Below are positions 22,983-60,237 of a DNA stretch of 64,000 nucleotides, one piece after another (position 1 is the first letter of the stretch; each line of letters starts with the position of its first letter). Below the pieces are notes generated by a model, which saw only the letters and a program-made list of their open reading frames with translations, searched no databases and was not told the origin of the DNA. The translations under genes were made by a program, and so were the position numbers. The stretch comes from Sporolactobacillus sp. THM19-2. GTDB taxonomy: Bacteria; Bacillota; Bacilli; Bacillales; Sporolactobacillaceae. Location of the stretch: the NCBI RefSeq assembly GCF_004153195.1, contig NZ_SEMC01000009.1:1-64000 (forward strand). Reading direction: 5' to 3'.

Positions 22983-23519
22983 TTAAAGGATTTCATAGAC
23001 ACACCAGACCATATCCGGCGTCCAGGTCTGTTCAATGCTTTCATCCGGATCCAGCCGGACAATCCGGAGGCTGGTGATCACATAGCGGGCTTTTTCTCTG
23101 CGGTACATCTGATAAGCCAGGTACTTGCTGTCTGCATACCGGATCTCACAGTCTGACGCAGTGTCGCCGAGATAGTGCCTGAGCAGAGTTGTCGTTGCCG
23201 GATGCGTGCAGGCGATCCCGTTTGAAGCCCCATTCCGACGGACCAGGACAAGCGGATTCAGCGGATGACGGAAACAGGCCACAAGCCTCAGCCCCCTCAG
23301 ATGGCTGTAATGAAAGTCCGCCCAGTCGATATGATCACGAAAGGATTTGTAGGCGGCGGGCATGATCAGAAAATCGCTGCGGTAATCGGTCAGATGATGC
23401 GTAATGTCTTCGAAACAGTCATGCAGGACAATCTTTCCGGCTGTCTGCCTTTTTTTCAGATAATGATAGGCGGCGCTGCTGCTGTCTGTTTCCTCAGGCC
23501 CCAGAGTATGAATAATCAA
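22983..23519 (-). CDS. BacA/prephenate dehydratase-fold protein in the aromatic operon
   Basis: A 178-residue protein starting MIIHTLGPEETDSSSAAYHYL, which matches the 'LGPEGTxSxxAA' start of prephenate dehydratases. The spacing of later blocks (VLHDCFEDITHHL, DFLIMPAAYK, GIACTHPATTTLLRHYL) follows BacA, the prephenate decarboxylase of bacilysin synthesis, better than PheA. The dehydratase NxTRF catalytic motif and the ACT domain are absent. It lies between aroC and aroA, 16 bases from aroC. It may act on prephenate, giving a non-aromatised product, or may be a regulatory remnant. No bacB-like partners are present nearby. Confidence 0.6.
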   Translation of the reverse strand: MIIHTLGPEETDSSSAAYHYLKKRQTAGKIVLHDCFEDITHHLTDYRSDFLIMPAAYKSFRDHIDWADFHYSHLRGLRLVACFRHPLNPLVLVRRNGASNGIACTHPATTTLLRHYLGDTASDCEIRYADSKYLAYQMYRREKARYVITSLRIVRLDPDESIEQTWTPDMVWCVYEIL

Positions 23520-26008: not shown

Positions 26009-26199
26009 CGGTGATTGCGATTCACGAAAGAAAGAGAGATTACAGATGATGGTGGCGGCCAGTCAGATCGGATTTTACGTATCCTGCTGGTTCACCATTA
26101 TAGCTTCCAGCTTCAGATACAAACGTTTTTACCCGTCCGTATCCGAAGTGGACACGAACGCTATCTAAAGTAATAGAAGCTATAATAGCCGATCTGGCC
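25997..26199 (-). promoter_or_regulatory. Competing helices of the aromatic-operon attenuator
   Basis: Four interacting RNA segments are visible. Segment 1 (26199-26176, inside the leader peptide) contains GGCCAGATCGG and ATTATAGCTTC. Segment 2 (26107-26057) contains GAAGCTATAAT and CCGATCTGACTGGCC. Segment 3 is GGCCAGTCGGATC (26009-25997). Segment 4 is the 3' terminator arm. Segments 1:2 pair through a perfect 11-bp inner helix (26176-26186 with 26097-26107) and an outer bulged helix. Segments 2:3 pair over 13 bp as antiterminator. Segments 3:4 form the terminator. This is the logic of a trp-type attenuator. Confidence 0.85.
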
Positions 26200-26226
26200 C
26201 TTAAACCACCGTTTCGTCATCATCAT
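26161..26226 (-). CDS. Tyr/Phe-rich leader peptide of the aromatic operon
   Basis: A 21-residue reading frame, too short for normal gene calling. It starts MMMTKRWFKGQIG and ends YYSFYYFR before TAG (26163-26161). Eight of 21 residues are aromatic (4 Tyr, 3 Phe, 1 Trp), with six in the last eight. AAGGG (26235-26231) gives a ribosome site 7 bases before the second of three ATGs. It begins about 20 bases after the predicted transcript start. The aromatic codons lie on segment 1 of the attenuator, where a stalled ribosome would free segment 2. Ribosome stalling at Tyr or Phe codons is inferred. Confidence 0.88.
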   Translation of the reverse strand: MMMTKRWFKGQIGYYSFYYFR

Positions 26227-49862: not shown

Positions 49863-49891
49863 TTGACAACAGCACTTTTTTCTGATTTAAT
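49863..49891 (+). promoter_or_regulatory. Promoter of the aminotransferase leader
   Basis: TTGACA (49863-49868), a 17-bp spacer, then TTTAAT (49886-49891). It is nearly identical in design to the promoter of the other Tyr/Phe leader (26281-26253). Confidence 0.78.
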
Positions 49892-49921
49892 AAAACCACA
49901 AAGTCAAGGGAGTTTTCACTG

Positions 49922-49990
49922 ATGAAAAGTCAGAGCAGGCATGAACTCCAATTAAAAAACTATTATTACTGCTTTCGTCTCTTTCGTTAG
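49922..49990 (+). CDS. Tyr/Phe-rich leader peptide of the aminotransferase operon
   Basis: A 22-residue frame, MKSQSRHELQLKN then YYYCFRLFR before TAG. AAGGGAG (49906-49912) lies exactly 9 bases before ATG 49922. Five of the last nine residues are Tyr or Phe, including three consecutive Tyr codons (49961-49969). It starts about 25 bases after the predicted transcript start and ends at the first base of a regulatory hairpin. The design matches the leader at 26161-26226, but the sequence is unrelated. Confidence 0.88.
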   Translation: MKSQSRHELQLKNYYYCFRLFR

Positions 49991-50083
49991 TGTTTGCATT
50001 CGAATCAGCGGGTGCAAACACTTCATTACCGGTTTGCATCCATGCGGAAGACCGAAAGTGGTCTGGTAAAACACGTAAAAAAC

Positions 50084-50120
50084 AACCACATGGATGATTC
50101 AATAGTCCGTGTGGTTTTTT
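50084..50120 (+). terminator. First attenuator terminator
   Basis: AACCACATGGA (50084-50094) pairs with TCCGTGTGGTT (50106-50116), an 11-bp stem with one G-U, then TTTTTT through 50120. Confidence 0.9.
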
Positions 50121-50142
50121 AATGGATCTGATGAAGAGACTT

Positions 50143-50182
50143 AAATCATCCACCGGCTGTTGAAGCCGTGGGTGATTTTTTT
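50143..50182 (+). terminator. Second attenuator terminator
   Basis: AAATCATCCACCGGCT (50143-50158), loop GTTGA, AGCCGTGGGTGATTT (50164-50178): 15 bp with one bulge, followed by a T-run to 50182. It ends 15 bases before the aminotransferase Shine-Dalgarno. Confidence 0.92.
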
Positions 50183-50207
50183 AAGTGATCGAAAAAAGGG
50201 GAGAATC

Positions 50208-51404
50208 ATGATGACACATGTACTGGCAGACAAAATGAAGAAGGAGCTCAGCCTCCTTCAGCCTTCGGACATCTTAAAATTTGATCAGGAAACATCTTCG
50301 ATACCGGGGATTATCAAACTGACTCTGGGTGAGCCGGATTTCAATACGCCGGAACACATTAAAGAGGCCGGAAAGAAAAGTATTGATGCAAATCGGAGCC
50401 ATTATGCTCCATCGGCCGGAACGCCGGGGCTGCGCCGGGCAATCAGCCGGTTTCTTGAAACCAAATATAAACTCCGTTACAATCCGGACACTCAGCTCCT
50501 TGTAACCACCGGCGCGACGGAAGCGATTTTTGCTTCACTGACGTCGATCATTAATCCGGGGGATAAGATACTGATTCCAACGCCAATTTTTCCGCTTTAC
50601 ATACCGATCGCGCTGCTCAATGGGGCTGAACCGGTCTTCATGGATACCTCCGATAATGGTTTTGTCCTCTCTCCTGAAACCCTGGACCAGGCGCTGAATA
50701 AGCATGGAAAGGCGGTAAAAGCGATTATCTTTAATTTTCCCACCAACCCGACCGGCGTCACCTATCGCAGGAGCGAGATTGAAGCGCTGGCGGACGTGCT
50801 GAAAAAGCACGACATTTTTGTCATCTGCGATGAGATCTACAGTGAGCTGACTTACGGTGAGCCGCATGTCTCGATGGCAGAATATCTGCCGGATCAGACA
50901 ATTCTGATCAACGGCGCCTCAAAATCACATGCGATGACCGGCTGGCGGATCGGATTCCTTGCAGGTCCTGAGGAAGTCATGCGGAAAATGGGCACAGTAC
51001 ACCAGTTTATGATTACTTCGGCCACAACGATGGCACAGGACGCAGCGCAGGAGGCATTTGAAAACGGGATGAATGATGGCACGCAAATGCGGGCGGAGTA
51101 TGAGAAGCGGCGTGATTTTGTTTATCAGAAAATGACAGAAATGGGTTTTTCCTGTCCGAAGCCTGAGGGAGCTTTTTATCTGTTTGCGAAAATTCCCGAA
51201 GGTTTTCCGCAGAAGAGCATAGATTTCTGTGTCGACCTTGCCCGCAATGCGAAAGTTGCGGTCATCCCCGGCGATTCGTTCGGACCCGGCAGTGCCGGCC
51301 GTATCCGAATCAGCTATGCAGCCAGCATGGATGTACTGAAAGAAGCGATGCGGCGGATTGAACACTATGTCACTGAAAAAAAACAAAGGAGCGTCCAGGC
51401 ATGA
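50208..51404 (+). CDS. PLP-dependent aminotransferase, aromatic type
   Basis: A class I aminotransferase of 398 residues, resembling the AraT/PatA group that transaminates Phe, Tyr and related acids. LTLGEPDFNTPEHI is the substrate loop, TTGATEAIF the PLP phosphate site, FPTNPTG and CDEIY the ring contacts. NGASKSHAMTGWRIGF holds the PLP Lys (about 239). AGGGGAG (50197-50203) precedes two ATGs, 50208 and 50211. It overlaps the dehydrogenase by 4 bases. The aromatic assignment leans on the upstream Tyr/Phe leader; it would catalyse the last step to Phe and Tyr. Confidence 0.85.
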   Translation: MMTHVLADKMKKELSLLQPSDILKFDQETSSIPGIIKLTLGEPDFNTPEHIKEAGKKSIDANRSHYAPSAGTPGLRRAISRFLETKYKLRYNPDTQLLVTTGATEAIFASLTSIINPGDKILIPTPIFPLYIPIALLNGAEPVFMDTSDNGFVLSPETLDQALNKHGKAVKAIIFNFPTNPTGVTYRRSEIEALADVLKKHDIFVICDEIYSELTYGEPHVSMAEYLPDQTILINGASKSHAMTGWRIGFLAGPEEVMRKMGTVHQFMITSATTMAQDAAQEAFENGMNDGTQMRAEYEKRRDFVYQKMTEMGFSCPKPEGAFYLFAKIPEGFPQKSIDFCVDLARNAKVAVIPGDSFGPGSAGRIRISYAASMDVLKEAMRRIEHYVTEKKQRSVQA

Positions 51405-52411
51405 AGATTTTGATGTTGACAGTCAGAGATGATGAAATTCCGGCGATCAGGGAATGGGAGAAACAAAACGGTGTTCAGGTCGATGTCAGCGGTGAGGAGC
51501 TGACTGCCGATACGGTGAGTCTCGTGAAGGGCTATGATGGAGTGGTCATTCAGCAGCGGACACCGATCACGGACGATGCTGTTTTCGCAGCACTGAAGCA
51601 CTACGGCATCAGGCAGCTCTCGTCACGGACAGCGGGCTACGACATGATCGATACAAAAAAGGCGTCTGAATACGGCCTGATTGTAACCAATGTGCCTGCC
51701 TACTCGCCGAATTCGGTTGCCGAACTCGCTGTTACCCAGGCGATGAGACTGATCCGTAACCTGCCGCTGTTCGAGGAAAGAGCCAGGCAGCAGGACTTCC
51801 GCTGGAGCGGGCTGATGGCCCGTGAGATCCGTACGCTGACCGTCGGCATTATCGGTGCCGGAAGAATCGGCGGCACGGCCGCACGACTTTTCAAGGGACT
51901 TGGCGCAACGGTGATCGCAAGCGACATTGTCGAACGTGAGGACCTGAAAGATATTCTGGTGTACGTATCGAAAGAAGAATTACTGCGGCAGGCCGACATC
52001 GTCACACTGCATGTCCCACTGATGGATACAACCGTCGGACTGATCGGAGCGGATGATCTGGCATTAATGAAGCCCGATGCCTTTATTATTAACGCATCAC
52101 GCGGGCCGGTACTCGATACGGATGCACTGATCAGGGCGCTGCAGGAGAAGAAGATAGCCGGGGCCGCCCTGGATACGCTGCAGGGTGAAGAAAAATTCTT
52201 TAACCGGGATCTGCGCGGGAAAGACATTCCGAGCGACGCCTTAAAAACGCTGCGCACCATGCCGAATGTGCTGATTACACCGCATATTGGCTTCTACACG
52301 AACATGGCGGTGAAGAATATGGTGGAAATCGCATTAAATGATGCCCTGTCCATTTTGAAAACCGGGAAGGGTGAGCATCAGGTTAATGATGTGGCAGTAA
52401 ATGAAAAATGA
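51401..52411 (+). CDS. D-2-hydroxyacid dehydrogenase
   Basis: An NAD-dependent reductase of 336 residues of the D-lactate/D-hydroxyisocaproate dehydrogenase type. SSRTAGYDMID is the substrate loop, VGIIGAGRIGGTAARLF the NAD motif. NASRGPV, LQGEE and TPHIGFYT supply the Arg, Glu and His of the active site. Paired with an aromatic aminotransferase it would reduce phenylpyruvate or 4-hydroxyphenylpyruvate to the D-lactates. Relatives also make D-lactate from pyruvate. The substrate preference is inferred from the operon. Confidence 0.88.
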   Translation: MKILMLTVRDDEIPAIREWEKQNGVQVDVSGEELTADTVSLVKGYDGVVIQQRTPITDDAVFAALKHYGIRQLSSRTAGYDMIDTKKASEYGLIVTNVPAYSPNSVAELAVTQAMRLIRNLPLFEERARQQDFRWSGLMAREIRTLTVGIIGAGRIGGTAARLFKGLGATVIASDIVEREDLKDILVYVSKEELLRQADIVTLHVPLMDTTVGLIGADDLALMKPDAFIINASRGPVLDTDALIRALQEKKIAGAALDTLQGEEKFFNRDLRGKDIPSDALKTLRTMPNVLITPHIGFYTNMAVKNMVEIALNDALSILKTGKGEHQVNDVAVNEK

Positions 52412-52592: not shown

Positions 52593-53627
52593 TTGAATGA
52601 CGTAAAACAGCAGCTCGCTGAATTTCAGAGGAAAACGATCGATCTGGATCAGCTTGGGCATCTTTTTGGATCACAATTCCAGACTTATGAAGCATTCTCC
52701 AGAGCTGTTCTCCGGCTTGAAGAAGAGCAGGTGCTGATTATGGTGCGTTCCACCGGCCGGACGATCCGCAGCCCGTCGCTTGCCCTCAAATATCGTATTA
52801 ACAGGAGCGCCATAACCGGCGACTATCACAAAGAGTTGCAGAAATATCGGTTGAAGCTGCACACAGCAATTAATCTCGACAGTTATTATCGCACTGATCC
52901 ATCCATCTGGAGGCGACATCTTCCCTACCTTTGGAAAATTGATCGTTATTTGAGAGAAAAGGGTTTTCCCGAAGATCAGGTACCGGCACCGGAGCGGAGT
53001 TTCGAGCTGGTAGGCGATGAGAAATGGATCGACGAAAAAGGCGGCCGGGAGATTCTGGAAAAAATCCATCTGTTTGACCGGTTAAAGATTATTCCGGTTT
53101 CAGATCCCCTGATGTTTGCTGTCAATCCCCTGAGCATTCATGATACGGATCAATTGCATCTGATCGTTGAAAATAAAACCACTTATCAGGGCCTGCTGCC
53201 GATCATTCGAGAGACGGAATTTGCAACTCTGATTTATGGCTCCGGAAAAGCGGTCATCAAAAGTATCGGACAATTTACGATGCAGTATCCGGTTCATGCT
53301 GAGCACCACTTTCTGTACTTCGGCGATCTGGACAAAGAAGGCCTGTCGATCTGGTATTCTCTAAATCAAAAACAGAAGGCGGAGCCGGCCCTGCCGTTTT
53401 ATCAGGCATGCCTGGGGAAACAGCCGGTACCCGGAAAAGCATACCAGCGTCTGAGAGACACGGCAGTGGACCGGTTCCTGTCCTGCTTCCCGAAACAGCA
53501 GGCAGAGCGGATACGCCAAACACTTCTTAAGGGACAATACTTCCCGCAGGAAATCCTCAAAATGAAGGAATTACAACAGATATGGAGGAATTCGGATTGG
53601 AAGGGCTTGAACTTCACGACATCCTGA
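52593..53627 (+). CDS. jetD: Wadjet JetD, Toprim nuclease subunit
   Basis: A 344-residue protein of the DUF2220/JetD group. A winged-helix N-terminal half (about residues 1-150) precedes a Toprim domain with HHFLYFGDLDKEGLSIWY (about 240-257) holding the acidic GDLD metal site. In characterised Wadjet systems JetD cuts circular DNA extruded by the JetABC complex. The TTG start at 52593 follows GGGGTGG. It heads the jetDABC operon and overlaps jetA. Confidence 0.86.
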   Translation: MNDVKQQLAEFQRKTIDLDQLGHLFGSQFQTYEAFSRAVLRLEEEQVLIMVRSTGRTIRSPSLALKYRINRSAITGDYHKELQKYRLKLHTAINLDSYYRTDPSIWRRHLPYLWKIDRYLREKGFPEDQVPAPERSFELVGDEKWIDEKGGREILEKIHLFDRLKIIPVSDPLMFAVNPLSIHDTDQLHLIVENKTTYQGLLPIIRETEFATLIYGSGKAVIKSIGQFTMQYPVHAEHHFLYFGDLDKEGLSIWYSLNQKQKAEPALPFYQACLGKQPVPGKAYQRLRDTAVDRFLSCFPKQQAERIRQTLLKGQYFPQEILKMKELQQIWRNSDWKGLNFTTS

Positions 53628-55111
53628 ATGGTTATAAAGAACGTATGCGTCGCCTTGCTCTATTTGATCCGCTTTATGAGCTTGATCGCAAAAGAGAGCA
53701 GGATCAGAATCATAAAGAAATCGATATGAAAGGGCTGGGTCTCCTCACTTTACTGTTCTTTTTTGAAGAGAAACTGATGCGAGAGTACAAAGCGGGCGCA
53801 AGACAGCTGGCTGCTTTTCTTGAAAAAGCCTCTGCATCGCAGTATCAGCTTGACAGATCCGAGTATGAACGTCTATCGAGATCGATCATTCAGACGTTCC
53901 GGCCGACCACCGGGAAAAAACGACGCTATGCTTTTTTTAACTGGGAGACAGGTGAAGCAGACGGTATCGACTATTCAATATTGAAAGCCAACAGCTTTGA
54001 AGTGAAAACGAACACACAGTTCTACACACTCGATGAGGACGGGCTGGAACTGGTCTTTGCAACAAAGGAATTTTACAGTGAGTTCCAGCTGTCGATTAAT
54101 CAGCTGATGCTGCGTAAACAGCTGGAGAAAGGTGAATTCAAAGGTGCTCTGAGGCAGATTAATGAAATGCGTATCAATGTAGAGAGCCTGGAGGAACGGA
54201 TAACGCGTCTGAAACACGAGATTCAGCGCAGTATTGTTTCGGAGGAGACGTTTGAACGATACAAGCAGCTTCTGGAAGATATCAATGAACGGCTCAAGCG
54301 TGAGGATGATGAATTTAAAGCATTAAGGCAGTTTGTTGAGGAGACGCGGGAACGCCTGTACTCCGGAGATGTACAGAAAAAAGAAGCAAGGACGTATGAT
54401 CTGATTCTGACAATCGCCCGTGAACTGGAGTCCGTTCATTATGACCATTCACGGCTTCTGAAGCAGACCTTTAATTTAAAGAATACGACACTGGTTACAG
54501 CCCGGGAATCGCTGTACTATACAGGTATTCAGGCATTCAATTTCGATCAGGATCTGGCTGCCAGAATTATAGCAACACCACTTCCGCCTGAAGCCATGAC
54601 CGGTGTGCTTCAGCCCTTTTTCAGGGTAGAGGAGAACAGGAGCTGGTCACCGCTTGCTGTTTTTGCAGATCAGAAGATGATGGAAGAACGGGAGGAACGG
54701 GAAGATCAGGGATTCCCTGAAGTGATTGATGAAGAAGGAGATCCATCGTACCGGAGGGCTCTGGCGGGAAAATATAAAGAGTTGATGCACCTGTATCTAA
54801 TTGCCGATGAAGCCGGAGAGGGACGAAAGCTATCCCAATTTCTCGATTTTCTTGAAGCACGTGGTGAGTCTGAATGGTTTGAGAAACGTTATTTTTATCA
54901 ATTCTGGCTGATACTTCATCAGCGTTTTCCGGTAAGAAATGAGGATAAAGAGGATGAAGAAGGGAAAACAATTCTCGATCAGGCTCTGGCGCTCCTCGGC
55001 AACCGGGTGATGACTGTCCGTGAGGGAAAAGGCATTGTCCACAAGTCTGAAAGGTTTGCCATACAGGAACTGCTGATCGATCTGGAGGATGATACGGATG
55101 AACTATCCTGA
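53582..55111 (+). CDS. jetA: Wadjet JetA, kleisin-type subunit
   Basis: A 509-residue protein resembling the JetA group with DUF5716 (assigned from memory). It has long acidic helices and coiled-coil stretches (about residues 205-290), and a C-terminal winged-helix-like end. It acts as the kleisin bridging the SMC heads. ATG 53582 has only a weak site; TTG 53597 has GGAGG 8 bases upstream and may be the true start. It overlaps jetD and jetB. Confidence 0.78.
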   Translation: MEEFGLEGLELHDILNGYKERMRRLALFDPLYELDRKREQDQNHKEIDMKGLGLLTLLFFFEEKLMREYKAGARQLAAFLEKASASQYQLDRSEYERLSRSIIQTFRPTTGKKRRYAFFNWETGEADGIDYSILKANSFEVKTNTQFYTLDEDGLELVFATKEFYSEFQLSINQLMLRKQLEKGEFKGALRQINEMRINVESLEERITRLKHEIQRSIVSEETFERYKQLLEDINERLKREDDEFKALRQFVEETRERLYSGDVQKKEARTYDLILTIARELESVHYDHSRLLKQTFNLKNTTLVTARESLYYTGIQAFNFDQDLAARIIATPLPPEAMTGVLQPFFRVEENRSWSPLAVFADQKMMEEREEREDQGFPEVIDEEGDPSYRRALAGKYKELMHLYLIADEAGEGRKLSQFLDFLEARGESEWFEKRYFYQFWLILHQRFPVRNEDKEDEEGKTILDQALALLGNRVMTVREGKGIVHKSERFAIQELLIDLEDDTDELS

Positions 55112-55841
55112 ACAGAAAGTGATCCAGGCGTTTCAACTTTATACGGTACTCGCCAGAGATGCTCAGACAGGAATGGACGGAGTACAGCTTTACCGCGCGG
55201 ATGACGCGATACGCGGGCTTCTTGATCTATTTGCAAAACAGGTAGACTGCGTGATCATTGTAACGAGCGAACAGCTCTTTCTTGTACCGGAGACGACATT
55301 ATCTCCCTTTCATGTCAGTAACGATTGGATAAAGCGCCATTATCTACGGACCGGAGCAACCAACGGCGATATTTATTTACTCTATTTTGCCACACTCATC
55401 CTGTTCGGCAGCTTCTATGATACCTATCAGAGTCAGGAGCCGACACGTCTGTTTCTGCGGCTTGACGAGTGGGTGCATGTTATTCAGGAACGTATCGAGC
55501 AGCTGAAGACACATAGTGAAGAGGAACTGAAGCAACAGGAGAATGAATTTTCCTGTAACTGGCGCCTGATTATTGAAAAATGGGAAGACATGGACGACAT
55601 AAAGGAGACAGCGAAGAAACAGAGCGGGAATACGATCAGCCGGATGAGCTTTATCGATACGGTAAAACGGTTTCTGAGTGATCAGGGTCTTGTGCAGGAT
55701 ATCGGGAATGAAGAAATCAGACTGACAGAGAAAGCGAAGACGATTATTCAGCGTTATTTCATGGAAGTCGAATACAACAAGGGTATTCTGGAATTCGTAT
55801 ATGGTTTTGAAGGGGGTGAGCAGCATGCCGACCATCAGTAA
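55098..55841 (+). CDS. jetB: Wadjet JetB, KITE-type subunit
   Basis: A 247-residue protein at the JetB position, with winged-helix features (ISRMSFIDTVKRFLSDQGLVQDIGNEEIRLTEKAK) near the C-terminus. I associate it with the DUF6063 group. GGAGG (55084-55088) favours ATG 55098 over 55089. It overlaps both jetA and jetC, so the operon is tightly coupled. Confidence 0.72.
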   Translation: MNYPEQKVIQAFQLYTVLARDAQTGMDGVQLYRADDAIRGLLDLFAKQVDCVIIVTSEQLFLVPETTLSPFHVSNDWIKRHYLRTGATNGDIYLLYFATLILFGSFYDTYQSQEPTRLFLRLDEWVHVIQERIEQLKTHSEEELKQQENEFSCNWRLIIEKWEDMDDIKETAKKQSGNTISRMSFIDTVKRFLSDQGLVQDIGNEEIRLTEKAKTIIQRYFMEVEYNKGILEFVYGFEGGEQHADHQ

Positions 55842-58800
55842 GATCCGTTTAACCAACGTGATATATGAAGAGGGTAACAAGCGTTATAATGATGAACTCT
55901 TTCTTTTTGACGGACATAATGGTGCGATTCTGATTGAGAACGGCGGCGGGAAAACAGTATTTATCCAGACCGTTCTCCAGGCTATCCTGCCGCACACAGA
56001 TCTGGCGGATCGTAAAATTAAAAATACGCTGATGCTGAATGATGCACCGGCACATATTGCCATTGAATGGGTGATTCATGAACGGCCGCGTCGCTATGTC
56101 GTGACCGCGGTTTCCCTGTTTATGGTGAAAAACAGTCTTGATTCGCTGCGTTACGTCTACGAGTACAATGAGAATGATCCGAATGGTATTGAACATATTC
56201 CGTTTGTCCGGGAGATAAAGGGAGGTCAGCGCCCGGCAGAACGGGTAGAAATACAGGACTACTACAGCGGCATGAATGAGAGAACGCCGAGTGCGCAGAC
56301 ATTTAAGACGATCAAAGAGTACCGGGCATTTCTGGAAGATCAGTACAACATCATTTCCAGCGAATGGGAAAGTGTCGTTAAGATAAACAGCTCTGAAGGC
56401 GGCGTGGAAGCCTTTTTTGACGAATGTAAAACGACTAACCAGCTGTTCGACCGTCTGTTGATACCGACGGTGGAAGATTCCATTGTCGGACACGACCGGC
56501 ATCTTTTTTCCGGTCTCTTTGAGGAGCAGCTTGCGAGCTTAAGAAACTATAAAAGACTGAATGAAACACTTGAGGAAAATAAAGAAATCAGTGCAGAACT
56601 GGAGACCTACAGCAATACCTGTGAAAAGCTCCACGGCATGCAGGCAGACTATGACCGGACAAGATCCCGGGCAAAAGGCATCTGGAACGAACTGGTTCGG
56701 GAACAGCATCACTGGGAGAGGAATCAGGAAAAAACGAATAAAGATTTTCAGAACTGGCAGGCCGACAGTCATACGCATCAGGTCAAAGTTGATTCCTGTA
56801 CGATCTTCACCGAACGTCTGGCACTGGATGACTGCGTATCGCATTTAAATCAGGTGCGATCTGCTCTGGCCGGGACGCAGGATGCGCTCCGGAAAACCAG
56901 TCAAGAGTACTACACGCTGAAATGGGCCAGAGCAAAGAAAGAGAAACAGGAACAGGAGGAGGCTCTGAGTCTCTATCAGCATCAGCTGGATCAGTATGAC
57001 CGGAAAGAAGATGTTCACGTCCTTAATGAACAGCTGATTCATGCAAAGCGGGAATTGCTGGGCTGTTATGAAAAAGAGTTTGAGACCCTTGAAGCGCAGT
57101 TAAAGGACATCGATGCACGGCTTCATCCGGTTCAAAAGCGAATATTGGAGCTGCACGACAAGAAAAAATCCATATCCGAGAAGGAAAAAGGCGTCAGCCG
57201 GCGCCTGTCCGAGCTGCGGGGCAGTATAAAAGTACAAAAGACGCAGCTCGATAAGTTAAAAAGGGAGCTGCTTGCTGATCCGGCACAGGAAACGGTAGGC
57301 GGACAACTGGCGCTCTGGCAGGAACGTGTGCAATACCTGGACGAAGCGATCATCAGTCTGGTGAAAAAACAGAAAGATGACAAAGCACAGAGCGAAGAAG
57401 CACAGAAGGAGAAGGAACGCCGCCAGGAGGAGCAAAACGCGAATACCCGGGAAATCGATCGGTTGAAAGATGCACTATCCAATATGGAAAAAGCGAAAAA
57501 AGATGTGATCATTCAGCTTGCTGATCTGCGTCCGCAGTGGGCGGCACTTGAGGACGTCTACCTTAACCCGGAGTCGATTGAAAAAAGGCTGACCGAAAGC
57601 ATCAATCGTCTGGAACAGGATCATGAGGATCTGCTCTTTAAAGAGCGTGCAGCGCTGCGATTCGTAGATGATTATGGACATCAGGACCTGTTTTTCTGTG
57701 ACCCCTTTCTGGAAAAACAGCTGACATCCTGGAAAAACCAGTTTGATTACCTTGTTACAGGTGTGGAATATCTGCAGACAATGAGTGCGGAAGAGCGTGA
57801 GAAGCATCTGGATTACTCACTGTGGCCACTCACACTGGTAACCACTCAGACAGGCAAAGAGAAAATTATCGATAAACTGGGTCATATATCAGACCGTCTG
57901 CAGTATCCTGTCAAAGTGCTGACAACCGAAGAAGCACTCACTGTTCAGGACCAGGCTGCCATCCAATCCTGGGTAGCACCGGATCACTGGAAAGGCAATA
58001 TTGATGCGGCAGCTTTTGAGGAATGGAAGGCACATATCAGTGTCGATGCGGAAAAAATGACTTCCCGACGCAAAGATAAAGAGCGCGAAAGGGAGAAATG
58101 GAAGGGAGGGCTGCTTGCTTTCCGGAAGTTCCTGAACGATTATCCTTACGAAACCATCGAGACCCAAAAAGCGCAGCTGAATGAAGTCATGAATAAACGC
58201 GAAGCGGTGATTGTCGCCCTGCAGCAGCTCGAACATATTCTTGACGCATTGCAGAATGAGATGAAAAAAAGTAAAGAAAAGGAAACACAGTACCGGGATG
58301 AAAAGCACGGCCGGGAACGTTATATCGAGAAAGGCTATGACTACCTGCTGACTGAGAAAGAAATGGCAGGTAACCGGAAGATGGAGCAGGATGCTGAAGA
58401 AAAGCTTCAGACTGTTTCAGAAGAGATAGCAGCAGTTGAAGGAAAGCTCATCAGGCTCGGGGAAAAGAGTAAAGAGCTGACTGACCGGAGAAACCGGGTG
58501 TATGTTCAGCTGCGTATGAGCCGGGATAATGAAGATTATCAGATGCTCACCTCATTAACTCCTGCTGAGACAGATGAAAGTAAAAAAGTCATCCATGAGC
58601 GGATCACCATTCTGGAAATGAAGCTGAAAAAGATTGCAACAGATCGCAATGAGTGGGCCATAAAACATGATGAAGCACAGAAGGTCATTCGGAAACTTCA
58701 TGAGGAAATGGCTGAACTGAAAAAAGATTATGATGAGATTGACGAGTCCTGCGAATTCCCGCAGGACGGGAAGCAGCTGATTGAAGATCTTCGGGTGCGG

Positions 58801-60237
58801 AGAACGGCACTGGCCGGAAAGAAAGAACGCCGGGGGCATGATATGCAGCAGGCGAAAACCGTGAAAGACAGGCAGGAGAGTAAAACGGAAACGCTGATCA
58901 TCCAGTTCAAAAGCAAATACCCGGACGATCCGGTCATTCCATTTGATATAACCCCCGGGGAAGTACGTGCAGAACTGGAGAAAGAACAGGATGACCTGAT
59001 AAAGCAAAAAGCATCCCTCGTTCAGACGTCAGAAAGGATCGATAAAGAACTGCAGGCCATTAACCAGGCCATGCATCAGCTTGAGCTGTTTGAGGAAGCC
59101 CATCACTTTATAGCATCGGATCCCGAACCTGTCAGTCTGACGAATGAAGAGCTGATGGAATTCAGCTACAATCGCTTAAAATTTGTTCAGACCGTGACGC
59201 GTGACCTTAAGGAAAACAGGCACAAAGTAGATCAGGGACGATCCGTTGTGGAAGAAGCACAGAAGCAATTCCGGGATTTCTGTCGTAAAAGGATTACCGA
59301 TGTCAAGCTGCGCCAAATGGCAATCAGCGGAGTAGAAACCAAAGAGAGTTATGAAGAGATTATGGCATTCAGACATAATATGTCAGAGCGGATTGACAGC
59401 ATTTCACATTACGCGCGTGAACATATCCGTCAGAGCGATAAAGACCGCCAGATGTTCATTGATCAGATACACACGCATCTCAAGACTCTAACGGGAGAAC
59501 TGAAACAGATACCCAGGAAGACCAAAGTGAAAGTACAGAATGACTGGAAGACGATCTATTCCTTTACCATTCCTGACTGGTCTGAAGAAGAAGGAAAAGC
59601 AAGGATCCGTAATTACATAGATTGGATCCTGCAGCAGTTGGAAAACGAACGTTTTCTTGACGATGAGGGACATCCTGATATGGGGAAAATCCGTAAGGAA
59701 CTCGACATGTGGCTCCAGTCCAAGCAGCTGCTTCGCGCGGTCATGGACAATCAGGCAATGAAAGTGACCTGCCGGAAAGTGACAAATGACAGTATGGTGA
59801 CCACACGTTCTTATTCATGGGAACAGAGCAACATCTGGTCGGGGGGAGAAAAATGGAGTAAAAATATGACCCTGTTCCTGGGCATTCTTAATTATGTTGC
59901 TGAGAAAAAGAAGTATCTGCAGTCCGGTGCGAAACTGAACCGAGCGGTCATCCTCGACAATCCATTCGGCCAGGCGTCAAGTGATCATGTGCTGAATCCC
60001 GTCTTTTTCGTGGCTCAGCAGCTTGGTTTTCAGATCATCGCCCTCACAGCTCTTGCTGAAGGCAAATTTCTCCAGGATTATTTCCCGGTCATCTACAGCT
60101 GTCGCCTCAGAGGATCCGGTTCCGGAAAACAGGTAATGACCAAAGAAAAATGGATCCGGAAAGCGTTTTTTGAAGACCAGGCACCTCAGAGTCTTGAAAG
60201 ATTAGGGGAAACAGAGCAGCTTGGTTTATTTGACTGA
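55825..60237 (+). CDS. jetC: Wadjet JetC, SMC-like ATPase
   Basis: A 1470-residue SMC/Rad50-like motor. Walker A is ENGGGKTVF (about 37-45). A long coiled-coil middle region spans about 240-1290 with a central hinge-like gap. Signature motif WSGGEKWSKNMTLF is near 1336-1349, and Walker B AVILDNPFGQAS near 1373. With JetA and JetB it would extrude DNA loops and present circular plasmids to JetD. It is the last gene of the operon. The start at ATG 55825 follows GGGGGTGAG. Confidence 0.9.
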   Translation: MPTISKIRLTNVIYEEGNKRYNDELFLFDGHNGAILIENGGGKTVFIQTVLQAILPHTDLADRKIKNTLMLNDAPAHIAIEWVIHERPRRYVVTAVSLFMVKNSLDSLRYVYEYNENDPNGIEHIPFVREIKGGQRPAERVEIQDYYSGMNERTPSAQTFKTIKEYRAFLEDQYNIISSEWESVVKINSSEGGVEAFFDECKTTNQLFDRLLIPTVEDSIVGHDRHLFSGLFEEQLASLRNYKRLNETLEENKEISAELETYSNTCEKLHGMQADYDRTRSRAKGIWNELVREQHHWERNQEKTNKDFQNWQADSHTHQVKVDSCTIFTERLALDDCVSHLNQVRSALAGTQDALRKTSQEYYTLKWARAKKEKQEQEEALSLYQHQLDQYDRKEDVHVLNEQLIHAKRELLGCYEKEFETLEAQLKDIDARLHPVQKRILELHDKKKSISEKEKGVSRRLSELRGSIKVQKTQLDKLKRELLADPAQETVGGQLALWQERVQYLDEAIISLVKKQKDDKAQSEEAQKEKERRQEEQNANTREIDRLKDALSNMEKAKKDVIIQLADLRPQWAALEDVYLNPESIEKRLTESINRLEQDHEDLLFKERAALRFVDDYGHQDLFFCDPFLEKQLTSWKNQFDYLVTGVEYLQTMSAEEREKHLDYSLWPLTLVTTQTGKEKIIDKLGHISDRLQYPVKVLTTEEALTVQDQAAIQSWVAPDHWKGNIDAAAFEEWKAHISVDAEKMTSRRKDKEREREKWKGGLLAFRKFLNDYPYETIETQKAQLNEVMNKREAVIVALQQLEHILDALQNEMKKSKEKETQYRDEKHGRERYIEKGYDYLLTEKEMAGNRKMEQDAEEKLQTVSEEIAAVEGKLIRLGEKSKELTDRRNRVYVQLRMSRDNEDYQMLTSLTPAETDESKKVIHERITILEMKLKKIATDRNEWAIKHDEAQKVIRKLHEEMAELKKDYDEIDESCEFPQDGKQLIEDLRVRRTALAGKKERRGHDMQQAKTVKDRQESKTETLIIQFKSKYPDDPVIPFDITPGEVRAELEKEQDDLIKQKASLVQTSERIDKELQAINQAMHQLELFEEAHHFIASDPEPVSLTNEELMEFSYNRLKFVQTVTRDLKENRHKVDQGRSVVEEAQKQFRDFCRKRITDVKLRQMAISGVETKESYEEIMAFRHNMSERIDSISHYAREHIRQSDKDRQMFIDQIHTHLKTLTGELKQIPRKTKVKVQNDWKTIYSFTIPDWSEEEGKARIRNYIDWILQQLENERFLDDEGHPDMGKIRKELDMWLQSKQLLRAVMDNQAMKVTCRKVTNDSMVTTRSYSWEQSNIWSGGEKWSKNMTLFLGILNYVAEKKKYLQSGAKLNRAVILDNPFGQASSDHVLNPVFFVAQQLGFQIIALTALAEGKFLQDYFPVIYSCRLRGSGSGKQVMTKEKWIRKAFFEDQAPQSLERLGETEQLGLFD

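Follow-up and report, generated by a model that had tools for sequence, protein, structure and literature searches.

A candidate Tyr/Phe leader-peptide attenuator with a seven-segment RNA chain before an aminotransferase operon of Sporolactobacillus

The leader locus

This report concerns the region 49863-50182 of a 64-kb stretch of DNA from the lactic-acid producer Sporolactobacillus sp. THM19-2 (contig NZ_SEMC01000009.1), where a putative attenuator responding to Tyr and Phe lies before an operon for an aminotransferase and a 2-hydroxyacid dehydrogenase. We call the whole stretch the window, its own genome G000 and the element at 49863-50182 the second leader; a first leader lies elsewhere in the window. 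Positions are those of the window (Table 1). Other genomes carry G numbers and other loci L numbers, and the ends of leader peptides are written up to the stop codon.

The element begins with a promoter and a Shine-Dalgarno (SD) sequence, behind which stands a frame of 22 codons. An earlier note on this DNA had drawn attention to the frame, to its SD and to a perfect 10-bp hairpin, and all three are indeed present in the sequence. The arms of the hairpin are AGTGTTTGCA (49989-49998) and TGCAAACACT (50013-50022), and its 5' arm starts within the TAG stop codon of the frame. The description of the promoter as near-identical to that of the first leader is fair as well (TTGACA and TTTAAT here, TTGACA and TTAAAT there). 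Two tandem terminator-like hairpins with T-runs (50084-50120 and 50143-50182) lie between the leader and the aminotransferase; the second of them, and the chain of seven segments described below, had been missed. The 318-nt RNA from 49898 to 50215 has a folding energy of -101.7 kcal/mol, and 0 of 100 dinucleotide shuffles fold as low (z -6.0).

A promoter and terminator scan of the window listed neither the promoter of the second leader nor its two terminator hairpins. The promoter is unlisted because the scan accepts a -10 hexamer only with A as its second base, and the hairpins because it allows loops of 3-8 nt, while the loop of hairpin 1 has 9 nt and the stem of hairpin 2 is bulged. In the whole 64-kb window no Rfam model is matched at its cut-off, those for the T-box and the enterobacterial Phe/Trp/His leaders included. 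Downstream, the aminotransferase has a second in-frame ATG at 50208. The dehydrogenase (51401-52411) stays under every NCBIfam cut-off, and it adjoins the aminotransferase in all 8 fetched regions containing it.

Table 1. Coordinates of the second leader, its operon and related loci
Feature	Position	Strand	Remarks
Promoter	49863..49891	+	TTGACA 49863-49868, 17-bp spacer, TTTAAT 49886-49891; sigma-70-type, from sequence
Shine-Dalgarno AAGGGAG	49906..49912	+	9 nt 5' of leader ATG 49922; from sequence
Leader peptide MKSQSRHELQLKNYYYCFRLFR, 22 codons	49922..49990	+	ends YYYCFRLFR, TAG at 49988-49990
AACTCC within leader frame	49944..49949	+	complementary to GGAGTT (49909-49914) at the Shine-Dalgarno
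Segment 1	49989..49998	+	starts within leader stop codon
Segment 2, partner of 1 or 3	50010..50022	+	alignment pairing
Segment 3, antiterminator arm, partner of 2 or 4	50032..50047	+	alignment pairing
Segment 4, 5' arm of terminator 1	50084..50095	+	alignment pairing
Terminator-1 loop, segment 5 and U-run	50098..50120	+	segment 6 is the partner of the loop and segment 5
Segment 6, 5' arm and loop of terminator 2	50143..50164	+	sequence, duplex folding
Segment 7 and T-run of terminator 2	50165..50182	+	hairpins folded; 6:7 shuffle test
Class I/II aminotransferase, PRK07309 group	50211..51404	+	NF005588 582.9 bits (cut-off 576); Pfam Aminotran_1_2
D-isomer 2-hydroxyacid dehydrogenase, operon gene 2	51401..52411	+	Pfam 2-Hacid_dh, 2-Hacid_dh_C; overlaps aminotransferase stop
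First leader MTKRWFKGQIGYYSFYYFR	26161..26220	-	before MFS-aroC-(178 aa)-aroA-tyrA-aroK; gene names by eye from translations
Third leader MVQQWCCFQMNRYYYFGWFI	G000:C17:28204-28368 (L184)		before transketolase; same segment layout by eye, Trp codon in sensor run
Operon of ADH synthase and DHQ synthase II-like protein under second leader	L120:2797-4766		Sporolactobacillus genome G001

Conservation of the leader within the genus

A search of 58 genomes found orthologs of the aminotransferase, 73-77% identical, in 11 congeneric genomes. A DNA pattern made of the last leader codons and the stop region, with at most two mismatches, occurs once each in 14 of 15 Sporolactobacillus genomes, and the reversed control pattern has no match in the same 15. 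The sole genome without the second leader is G010, which was not scanned for the first leader. In 13 of the 14 genomes the leader precedes the aminotransferase; these comprise the 12 upstream regions that were read (that of the window and those of 11 close orthologs) and the same-species genome G058.

The leader frame is intact and preceded by an SD in all 12 upstream regions, with a length of 20, 22 or 23 codons. The earlier note had proposed a Tyr/Phe leader attenuator here, to be given up if close relatives kept the operon and the hairpins without the frame; the conservation of the frame supports the proposal. Nine of the 12 leaders end in YYYFGFFR, and the variants are YYYCFRLFR in the window, YYFYFRFFR in G008 and YYYYFGFFR in G009. 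The common end across the genus is KLQLNNFYYYFGFFR, mostly ..FYYYFGFFR. The -35 hexamer is invariant in 12 of 12 aligned upstream regions and the -10 hexamer is variable.

Could the frame be a chance one, next to ordinary tandem terminators of the upstream quinone-oxidoreductase gene? Short frames preceded by an SD are common (the flanking DNA of the 105 RF04312 loci treated below holds 610), and in the genome of the window the hairpins do come after a gene. Against this, 14 of 15 genomes have the element, behind upstream genes that differ, and it has its own promoter, paired antiterminator segments and compensatory changes. Since the gene 5' of the second leader varies between genomes, the hairpins are not the conserved terminators of one upstream gene. 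We regard a chance frame as ruled out by the conservation in the genus.

The fourteenth leader, in G001, is instructive. This genome has no close ortholog of the aminotransferase (the best is 42% identical), yet the leader and all the hairpins are kept before another operon. Its gene 1 encodes 2-amino-3,7-dideoxy-D-threo-hept-6-ulosonate (ADH) synthase (319.3 bits; subfamily cut-off 241), and its gene 2 a protein like 3-dehydroquinate (DHQ) synthase II (374.4 bits, just under the cut-off of 375). ADH synthase and DHQ synthase II perform the archaeal-type first steps toward aromatic amino acids. The regulator therefore follows the pathway and not one gene.

A chain of seven segments

The pairings were examined in an alignment of 12 rows, A3, which includes G001 and leaves out G011 (a near copy of G003) and G058 (the species of the window). 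The RNA downstream of the leader codons has seven segments, each able to pair with the next, in two sets that exclude each other: 1:2, 3:4 and 5:6 on the one hand and 2:3, 4:5 and 6:7 on the other. Standard pairs fill 129 of 132 cells for 1:2 and 96 of 96 for 2:3; the figures are 106 of 120 for 3:4 and 142 of 144 for 4:5, compensatory changes included. The competition of the hairpin arms with a downstream antiterminator arm, which had been suggested from the window's sequence, is supported by the alternate pairing. Changes on both sides are seen in 1:2, 3:4 and 4:5. In G001, segments 3, 4 and 5 are altered together, from CCATGCGG, CCACATGG and CCGTGTGG to CCATACGG, CCGTATGG and CCGTGCGG; this triple change preserves 4:5, turns the usual C.A mismatch of 3:4 into a pair and brings a new mismatch at the other end of 3:4.

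The predicted duplex 5:6 makes use of the loops of terminators 1 and 2. Across the 12 rows its energy ranges from -14.3 to -19.5 kcal/mol; in 11 of them at most one of 500 shuffles is as low, and in G008 7 of 500 are. The terminator loops are complementary in every row, with both sides changing: TTCAATAG:CTATTGAA, ATCAATAA:TTATTGAT and, with one mismatch, TCGAACAG:CTGCTCGA. The loops would otherwise have no reason to match, which argues for 5:6 or for a contact between them; a kissing-loop contact in place of 5:6 is possible.

Each pair of segments was also compared with 200 shuffles per sequence, a pass meaning that at least 99% of them are beaten. The neighbour pairs 1:2, 2:3, 3:4, 4:5, 5:6 and 6:7 pass in 12, 12, 10, 12, 11 and 12 of the 12 second leaders. 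Among the 15 non-neighbour pairs, 13 pass in none of the 12 sequences, 4:6 passes in one and 4:7 in five.

One more complementarity lies within the leader frame, where the AACTCC stretch opposes the leader's own SD. By eye it is in 10 of the 12 rows of A3 and missing from G008 and G001. This pairing might limit translation of the leader by itself, or its re-initiation; it is a side feature only, since G008 and G001 are without AACTCC.

How the second leader might work

The features by which a ribosome-mediated attenuator is recognized are found here together: a conserved frame with its ribosome-binding site, a cluster of cognate codons (FYYYFGFFR, or YYYCFRLFR in the window) and terminator and antiterminator structures that exclude each other, as judged from complementarity and covariation. 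From these sequence features, the second leader is very probably a ribosome-mediated transcription attenuator that reads the charging of Tyr- and Phe-tRNA.

We suggest the following scheme. RNA polymerase would transcribe the leader region while a ribosome translates the leader peptide. With ample Tyr and Phe, the ribosome would reach the stop codon and cover segment 1; then 2:3, 4:5 (terminator 1) and 6:7 (terminator 2) would form and transcription would stop. A ribosome with a stop codon in its A site covers about 12 nt counted from the first base of this codon, and therefore all of segment 1 would be masked, while a ribosome at a Tyr codon would fall short of it. If Tyr is scarce, the ribosome would wait at the Tyr codons, 21-27 nt 5' of the stop, and leave segment 1 free; 1:2 would form, then 3:4, then 5:6, both terminators would be disarmed and the operon would be made. 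The Phe codons lie 6 and 15 nt 5' of the stop, and a wait on the last of them would leave segment 1 partly covered. The predicted response is hence ON in starvation.

Folding of partial transcripts agrees with the early steps of this scheme. When the RNA is made up to segment 4 and segment 1 is masked, 2:3 dominates in 12 of 12 sequences; with the ribosome on the last Tyr codon, 1:2 and 3:4 dominate in 9 of 12.

Several results weigh against the scheme. At the same stage with a Tyr-stalled ribosome, 2:3 is preferred in G013 and G001, with G008 in between. With segment 5 added, 4:5 wins at equilibrium in 12 of 12 sequences, even if segment 1 is free, and the expected pairs of 3:4 fall to 0.0 in 11 of 12 and to 0.9 in G002. 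The antiterminated state must therefore be kinetically trapped, and this is a real weakness. The raw energy medians of 3:4 (-12.6), 3:5 (-12.8) and 3:7 (-11.7) are close, so that only the shuffle test separates 3:4, and in 11 of 12 rows 3:4 includes a C.A mismatch. G008 is without the U-run of terminator 1 and without two pairs of 3:4. Finally, the D-2-hydroxyacid dehydrogenase is no obvious partner for biosynthesis.

A rival reading is the opposite sense of regulation, in which abundant Tyr or Phe would switch on a catabolic operon whose aminotransferase and hydroxyacid dehydrogenase produce aryl-lactates. The two enzymes could plausibly act together in degradation, and at equilibrium 4:5 is the more stable pairing. 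We nevertheless find this sense quite improbable: with the stop codon at segment 1, the parity of the segments gives ON under stalling, in G001 the genes behind the second leader are biosynthetic, and leaders with this layout are also found in front of aro genes, transketolase, aroE, trpB and hisZG. An attenuator that turns the operon on in starvation fits better with the genes behind the related leaders of the genus (the aminotransferase, ADH synthase with DHQ synthase II in G001, a shikimate operon and transketolase). Outside the genus the codon run likewise tracks the operon: TrpX-type genes follow runs of Trp or of Tyr/Phe, trpB follows Trp, aroE Tyr/Phe and hisZ-hisG His.

The first and third leaders

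The first leader is present in 10 further genomes, with ends such as YYYGFYYFR. Its neighbour pairs 1:2 to 6:7, the only pairs examined for it, pass the shuffle test in 10, 6, 8, 6, 9 and 10 of 10 sequences (G058 left out); the pairings are weaker for 2:3 and 4:5, with 6 of 10 each. The first and second leaders show the same segment chain and share one design. Both are found in 11 of the 15 genomes, and co-occurrence holds to this extent; G007, G012 and G013 have the second leader, and no first leader was seen beside the divergent aroC in these three.

The two leaders had been called independent and unrelated in sequence, and this part of the earlier note finds no support. A covariance model, R1, was built solely from second leaders and searched against 249 genomes of the order. 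Among its matches are the first leader of G004 (44.3 bits; E 6.3e-7 within G004) and, in the genome of the window, a third leader (46.3 bits; E 1.9e-7). The evidence is limited, since R1 finds the first leader in one of the three searched genomes known to hold one and misses it in G000 and G001. Matches on the antisense strand reach 34.4 bits, so that weaker scores mean little. Lone terminators without a leader account for the R1 matches L168-L170, outside the genus, and L185 in G001, which were rejected.

Leaders of the third type, with ends RY(Y/D)YF(G/D)W.., occur in eight further genomes (G002, G003, G004, G005, G006, G008, G009 and G012). The next gene is transketolase-like by eye in 7 of the 8; in G005 the longest listed frame is another. 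Erythrose 4-phosphate, a product of transketolase, feeds all three aromatic amino acids, and for this reason a Trp codon in the transketolase leader fits. All three types of leader end in aromatic-rich C-termini. There are at least three related leaders in the genome of the window, and most likely they serve one regulon.

The operon of the first leader holds a protein of 178 amino acids between aroC and aroA (22983-23519, minus strand), which is 52-60% identical to proteins of 9 other Sporolactobacillus genomes that have the operon and 99% identical in G058. It has no Pfam or NCBIfam match, and its start, HTLGPEETD, bears a faint likeness to prephenate dehydratase.

Relation to the trpB motif (RF04312)

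A match on the second leader of G001, below threshold (37.5 bits, E 0.024 over all families), points to RF04312, the trpB motif. This motif has been published as a strong riboswitch candidate, SRC-39-1, with more than 900 members and no assigned ligand, and in the available text its authors left a classic attenuator possible (PMC11109978). We collected 105 RF04312 loci from searches with overlapping genome sets. Twenty-one come from 398 genomes of the class (19 matched at E 0.001, 10 above the cut-off), and 24 plus a further 60, the latter picked across genera, from 395 genomes of the order of G149 (173 matched at E 1e-4, 60 above the cut-off).

In 100 of the 105 loci an SD-preceded frame ends beside the motif, and this count is independent of the model because the model begins after the leader stop. 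Trp is found within the last ten leader residues in 97 of the 105, often as WQNWRR or RWQSR, as compared with 132 of the 610 flank frames with an SD; at least two Trp occur in 66 of 100 leaders versus 33 of 610 flank frames. The bases after the leader stop pair with the left arm of P1, with a median of -14.0 kcal/mol versus -3.6 for a stretch 60 nt upstream, and in 64 of 100 leaders this pairing beats 99% of shuffles. P1 thus corresponds to the segment pair 2:3, and the Rfam model starts after segment 1.

Five loci have no fitting leader (L158, L159, L161, L244 and L284) and are all kept in the denominator of 105. L158, L159 and L161 look like false positives, and in L244 and L284 the script finds no Trp leader. 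L160 and L156 have Tyr/Phe runs in place of Trp; the leader of L156, missed by the script, was found by eye. In L153, an element of RF04312 type with 54.5 bits (cut-off 59), a His run, FHHHHRF, stands before hisZ-hisG, and this locus appears to link the His leaders of Bacilli to the scaffold of the trpB motif. A family search identified the next gene as trpB in L194 and as ABC_sub_bind in L143, L156 and L160; the rest were named by eye.

Like the window element, RF04312 has a P1 that equals 2:3, a terminator that equals 4:5 and an upstream leader ending by a segment 1 complementary to P1. It differs in having five segments, one terminator and mostly Trp codons. At the RF04312 gathering score of 59 the likeness does not register: the window element gives no match up to E 10, the best second-leader element is the one with 37.5 bits, and all matches in the genus are below the gathering score; the best four of them lie on leaders, but L337, ranked fifth, does not. 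All 15 Sporolactobacillus genomes have a match at E 1 or less, as do 5 of 14 control genomes, and therefore weak matches mean little.

The publication of RF04312 as a riboswitch candidate could be taken to mean that the RNA itself binds a metabolite or, as a T-box, a tRNA, and that the short frame is incidental. In the same direction, trpX of Streptococcus suis is under T-box control according to the part of PMC9382623 available to us. For the second leader we consider such direct binding very improbable. No Rfam family reaches its cut-off in the window, the conserved stretches are short complementary arms, and the frame is conserved with its SD and with codon runs that match the specificity of the operon. 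A T-box-like stretch, GGTGGTAC, is present in some relatives; it was rejected as a T-box, being absent from the window element, G008, G009 and G002 and having no Rfam match.

Relation to RF02863

The second family that bears on the leader is RF02863, Enterococcus sRNA 2410. In 295 genomes of the order of G149 it was matched in 158 at E 0.001 and in 72 above the cut-off. We read 35 loci, the 16 best and 19 chosen to spread over genera, leaving out L321, an RF04312 region. All 35 have a Tyr/Phe-rich leader C-terminus, e.g. NNYYFSYFR. The stop codon is at the same position of the model in 33 of the 35 and nine bases later in two, and 1:2 passes the shuffle test in 32. By script, 32 of 35 have a start preceded by an SD; in L307, L319 and L320 a start codon without such an SD was found by eye. 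These leader counts are not fully independent, because the model begins inside the last leader codons; the codons further upstream are independent. The next gene is of the TrpX type in 29 and shikimate dehydrogenase in 6, as named by eye and confirmed by family search for L286 and L305.

Eight of the 15 Sporolactobacillus genomes have RF02863 matches up to E 1, 11 in all. Ten of these lie on leaders, six of the third type, three of the first and one of the second; the last is the window element itself (23.7 bits, E 0.126). The eleventh match, L330, has no leader. The gathering score of 61 is well above both the window element and the best score in the genus (39.3 bits), and one control genome (Sulfolobus) is also matched at E 1 or less. 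The window element nevertheless has the traits of the family, a Tyr/Phe-rich leader end and a stop at the base of the first hairpin. RF02863 leaders are like those of the window's genus in their ends (QLNNFYFSYFR versus LQLNNFYYYFGFFR), in the stop at segment 1 and in the genes that follow, aromatic-pathway or TrpX-type. A difference is seen by eye in L294, where the 4:5 hairpin has no U-run and terminator 2 alone remains.

In Enterococcus faecium, sRNA_2410 is 195 nt long and gives two transcripts on Northern blots; in the available text, PMC5593968 treats it as a small RNA (sRNA) and not as an attenuator. Its name and length suggest to us that this is the RF02863 RNA. The two transcripts are what a terminated leader could look like.

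Peptide or codons

Another potential signal is the nascent peptide. Here a free amino acid, and not tRNA charging, would be sensed, through an arrest or slow-termination peptide (the aromatic run with the Arg behind it) that keeps the ribosome on the stop codon; TnaC is an arrest-type leader peptide of this sort that responds to Trp. All 12 second leaders use a CGN codon for the Arg before the stop, and all 10 first leaders an AGR codon. As Arg is kept despite different codons, the residue and not the bases seems to be selected, and a ribosome paused on the stop codon would cover segment 1. The pattern suggests selection on the residue; RNA-level reasons for Arg codons are also possible. Against a role of the peptide, the last residue is variable in the transketolase leaders (R, S, H, I) and is R in just 63 of 100 RF04312 leaders, and the identity of the codons tracks the operon (Trp, Tyr/Phe, His), as counting of tRNAs predicts. 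We consider control by the peptide itself unlikely, if less so than the other alternatives, and prefer a leader that reads tRNA charging.

In the RF02863 loci, a simple pattern gives AGR before the stop in 31 of 35 and CGA in 1 of 35, with none found in 3 of 35.

Other systems and a possible superfamily

Ribosome-mediated attenuation itself is of a known, textbook kind. The enterobacterial trp, phe and his attenuators have a leader with cognate codons, alternating hairpins and read-through in starvation, and the his leader has a long chain. Their number of segments is even and the stalled ribosome masks segment 1. The window element has, in contrast, an odd number (5 or 7 in the family), a segment 1 at the stop codon that would be masked by the finishing ribosome, and tandem terminators. 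The Thr_leader model matches the third leader with 29.9 bits, under its cut-off of 55.

In Bacilli, His leader-peptide attenuators that replace T-boxes in Bacillota have been described (Naville and Gautheret 2010 PMC2965389; Rodionov 2022 PMC9413887). They share a leader peptide with the window family, and L153 has the layout of RF04312; they are specific for His, and the accessible parts of these two papers do not tie them to RF04312 or RF02863. A further proposal, uORFC-13-1 of Acholeplasma aroF, is an upstream open reading frame with Phe codons and a terminator before a shikimate-pathway gene (PMC8632094). According to the portion of that paper at hand, it occurs only in Acholeplasma and environmental sequences, always before aroF, and no such chain of segments is described. 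A leucine-rich attenuator peptide in Staphylococcus aureus is named in a paper's title, and a Listeria paper on branched-chain amino acids is associated with the term leader peptide. Tyr/Phe or Trp leader peptides for the present operons, or links to RF04312 or RF02863, were not found in the literature covered, which includes few subscription journals.

What appears to be new from the sequences is an odd-numbered chain anchored at the stop codon, its growth from 5 to 7 segments with tandem terminators, a regulon of the aromatic pathway in Sporolactobacillus, and a new assignment for two Rfam families. On scores, the window element is formally a member of neither RF04312 nor RF02863. It shares with both the leader end and the presumed way of working, and probably a common descent.

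We lean towards the view that RF04312, RF02863, the His leader before hisZ-hisG and the three Sporolactobacillus leaders form one attenuator superfamily of Bacillota, possibly of common descent. Its members would have an odd chain of segments anchored at the leader stop and a sensor run that can be swapped (Trp, Tyr/Phe, Tyr/Phe/Trp or His), and the chain could be lengthened by two segments, from 5 to 7, with a second terminator and no change of logic. The frequent Arg before the stop may slow release and so keep segment 1 masked. The riboswitch candidate would then have no ligand, and the sRNA would be a terminated leader transcript.

If correct, this would give a testable answer to the question of what the trpB motif senses: nothing directly, because the motif would make up the 3' half of an attenuator with a leader peptide. 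RF02863, now annotated as an sRNA, would be recast as a terminated leader. Control by amino-acid leader peptides in Bacillota would extend to the aromatic pathway and to its supply of erythrose 4-phosphate. The odd-segment design would be a mirror image of the textbook trp attenuator, one that can be lengthened with its sense kept.

Neighbouring features

Directly 3' of the aminotransferase operon lies a complete defence cluster of the Wadjet type, JetD-JetA-JetB-JetC (52593-60237, plus strand), whose genes match PADLOC type 3 models at E 2.2e-116 or better. In G001, a group II intron domain is matched 3' of the ADH synthase operon (L120:5239-5309; 47.7 bits, Rfam cut-off 40).

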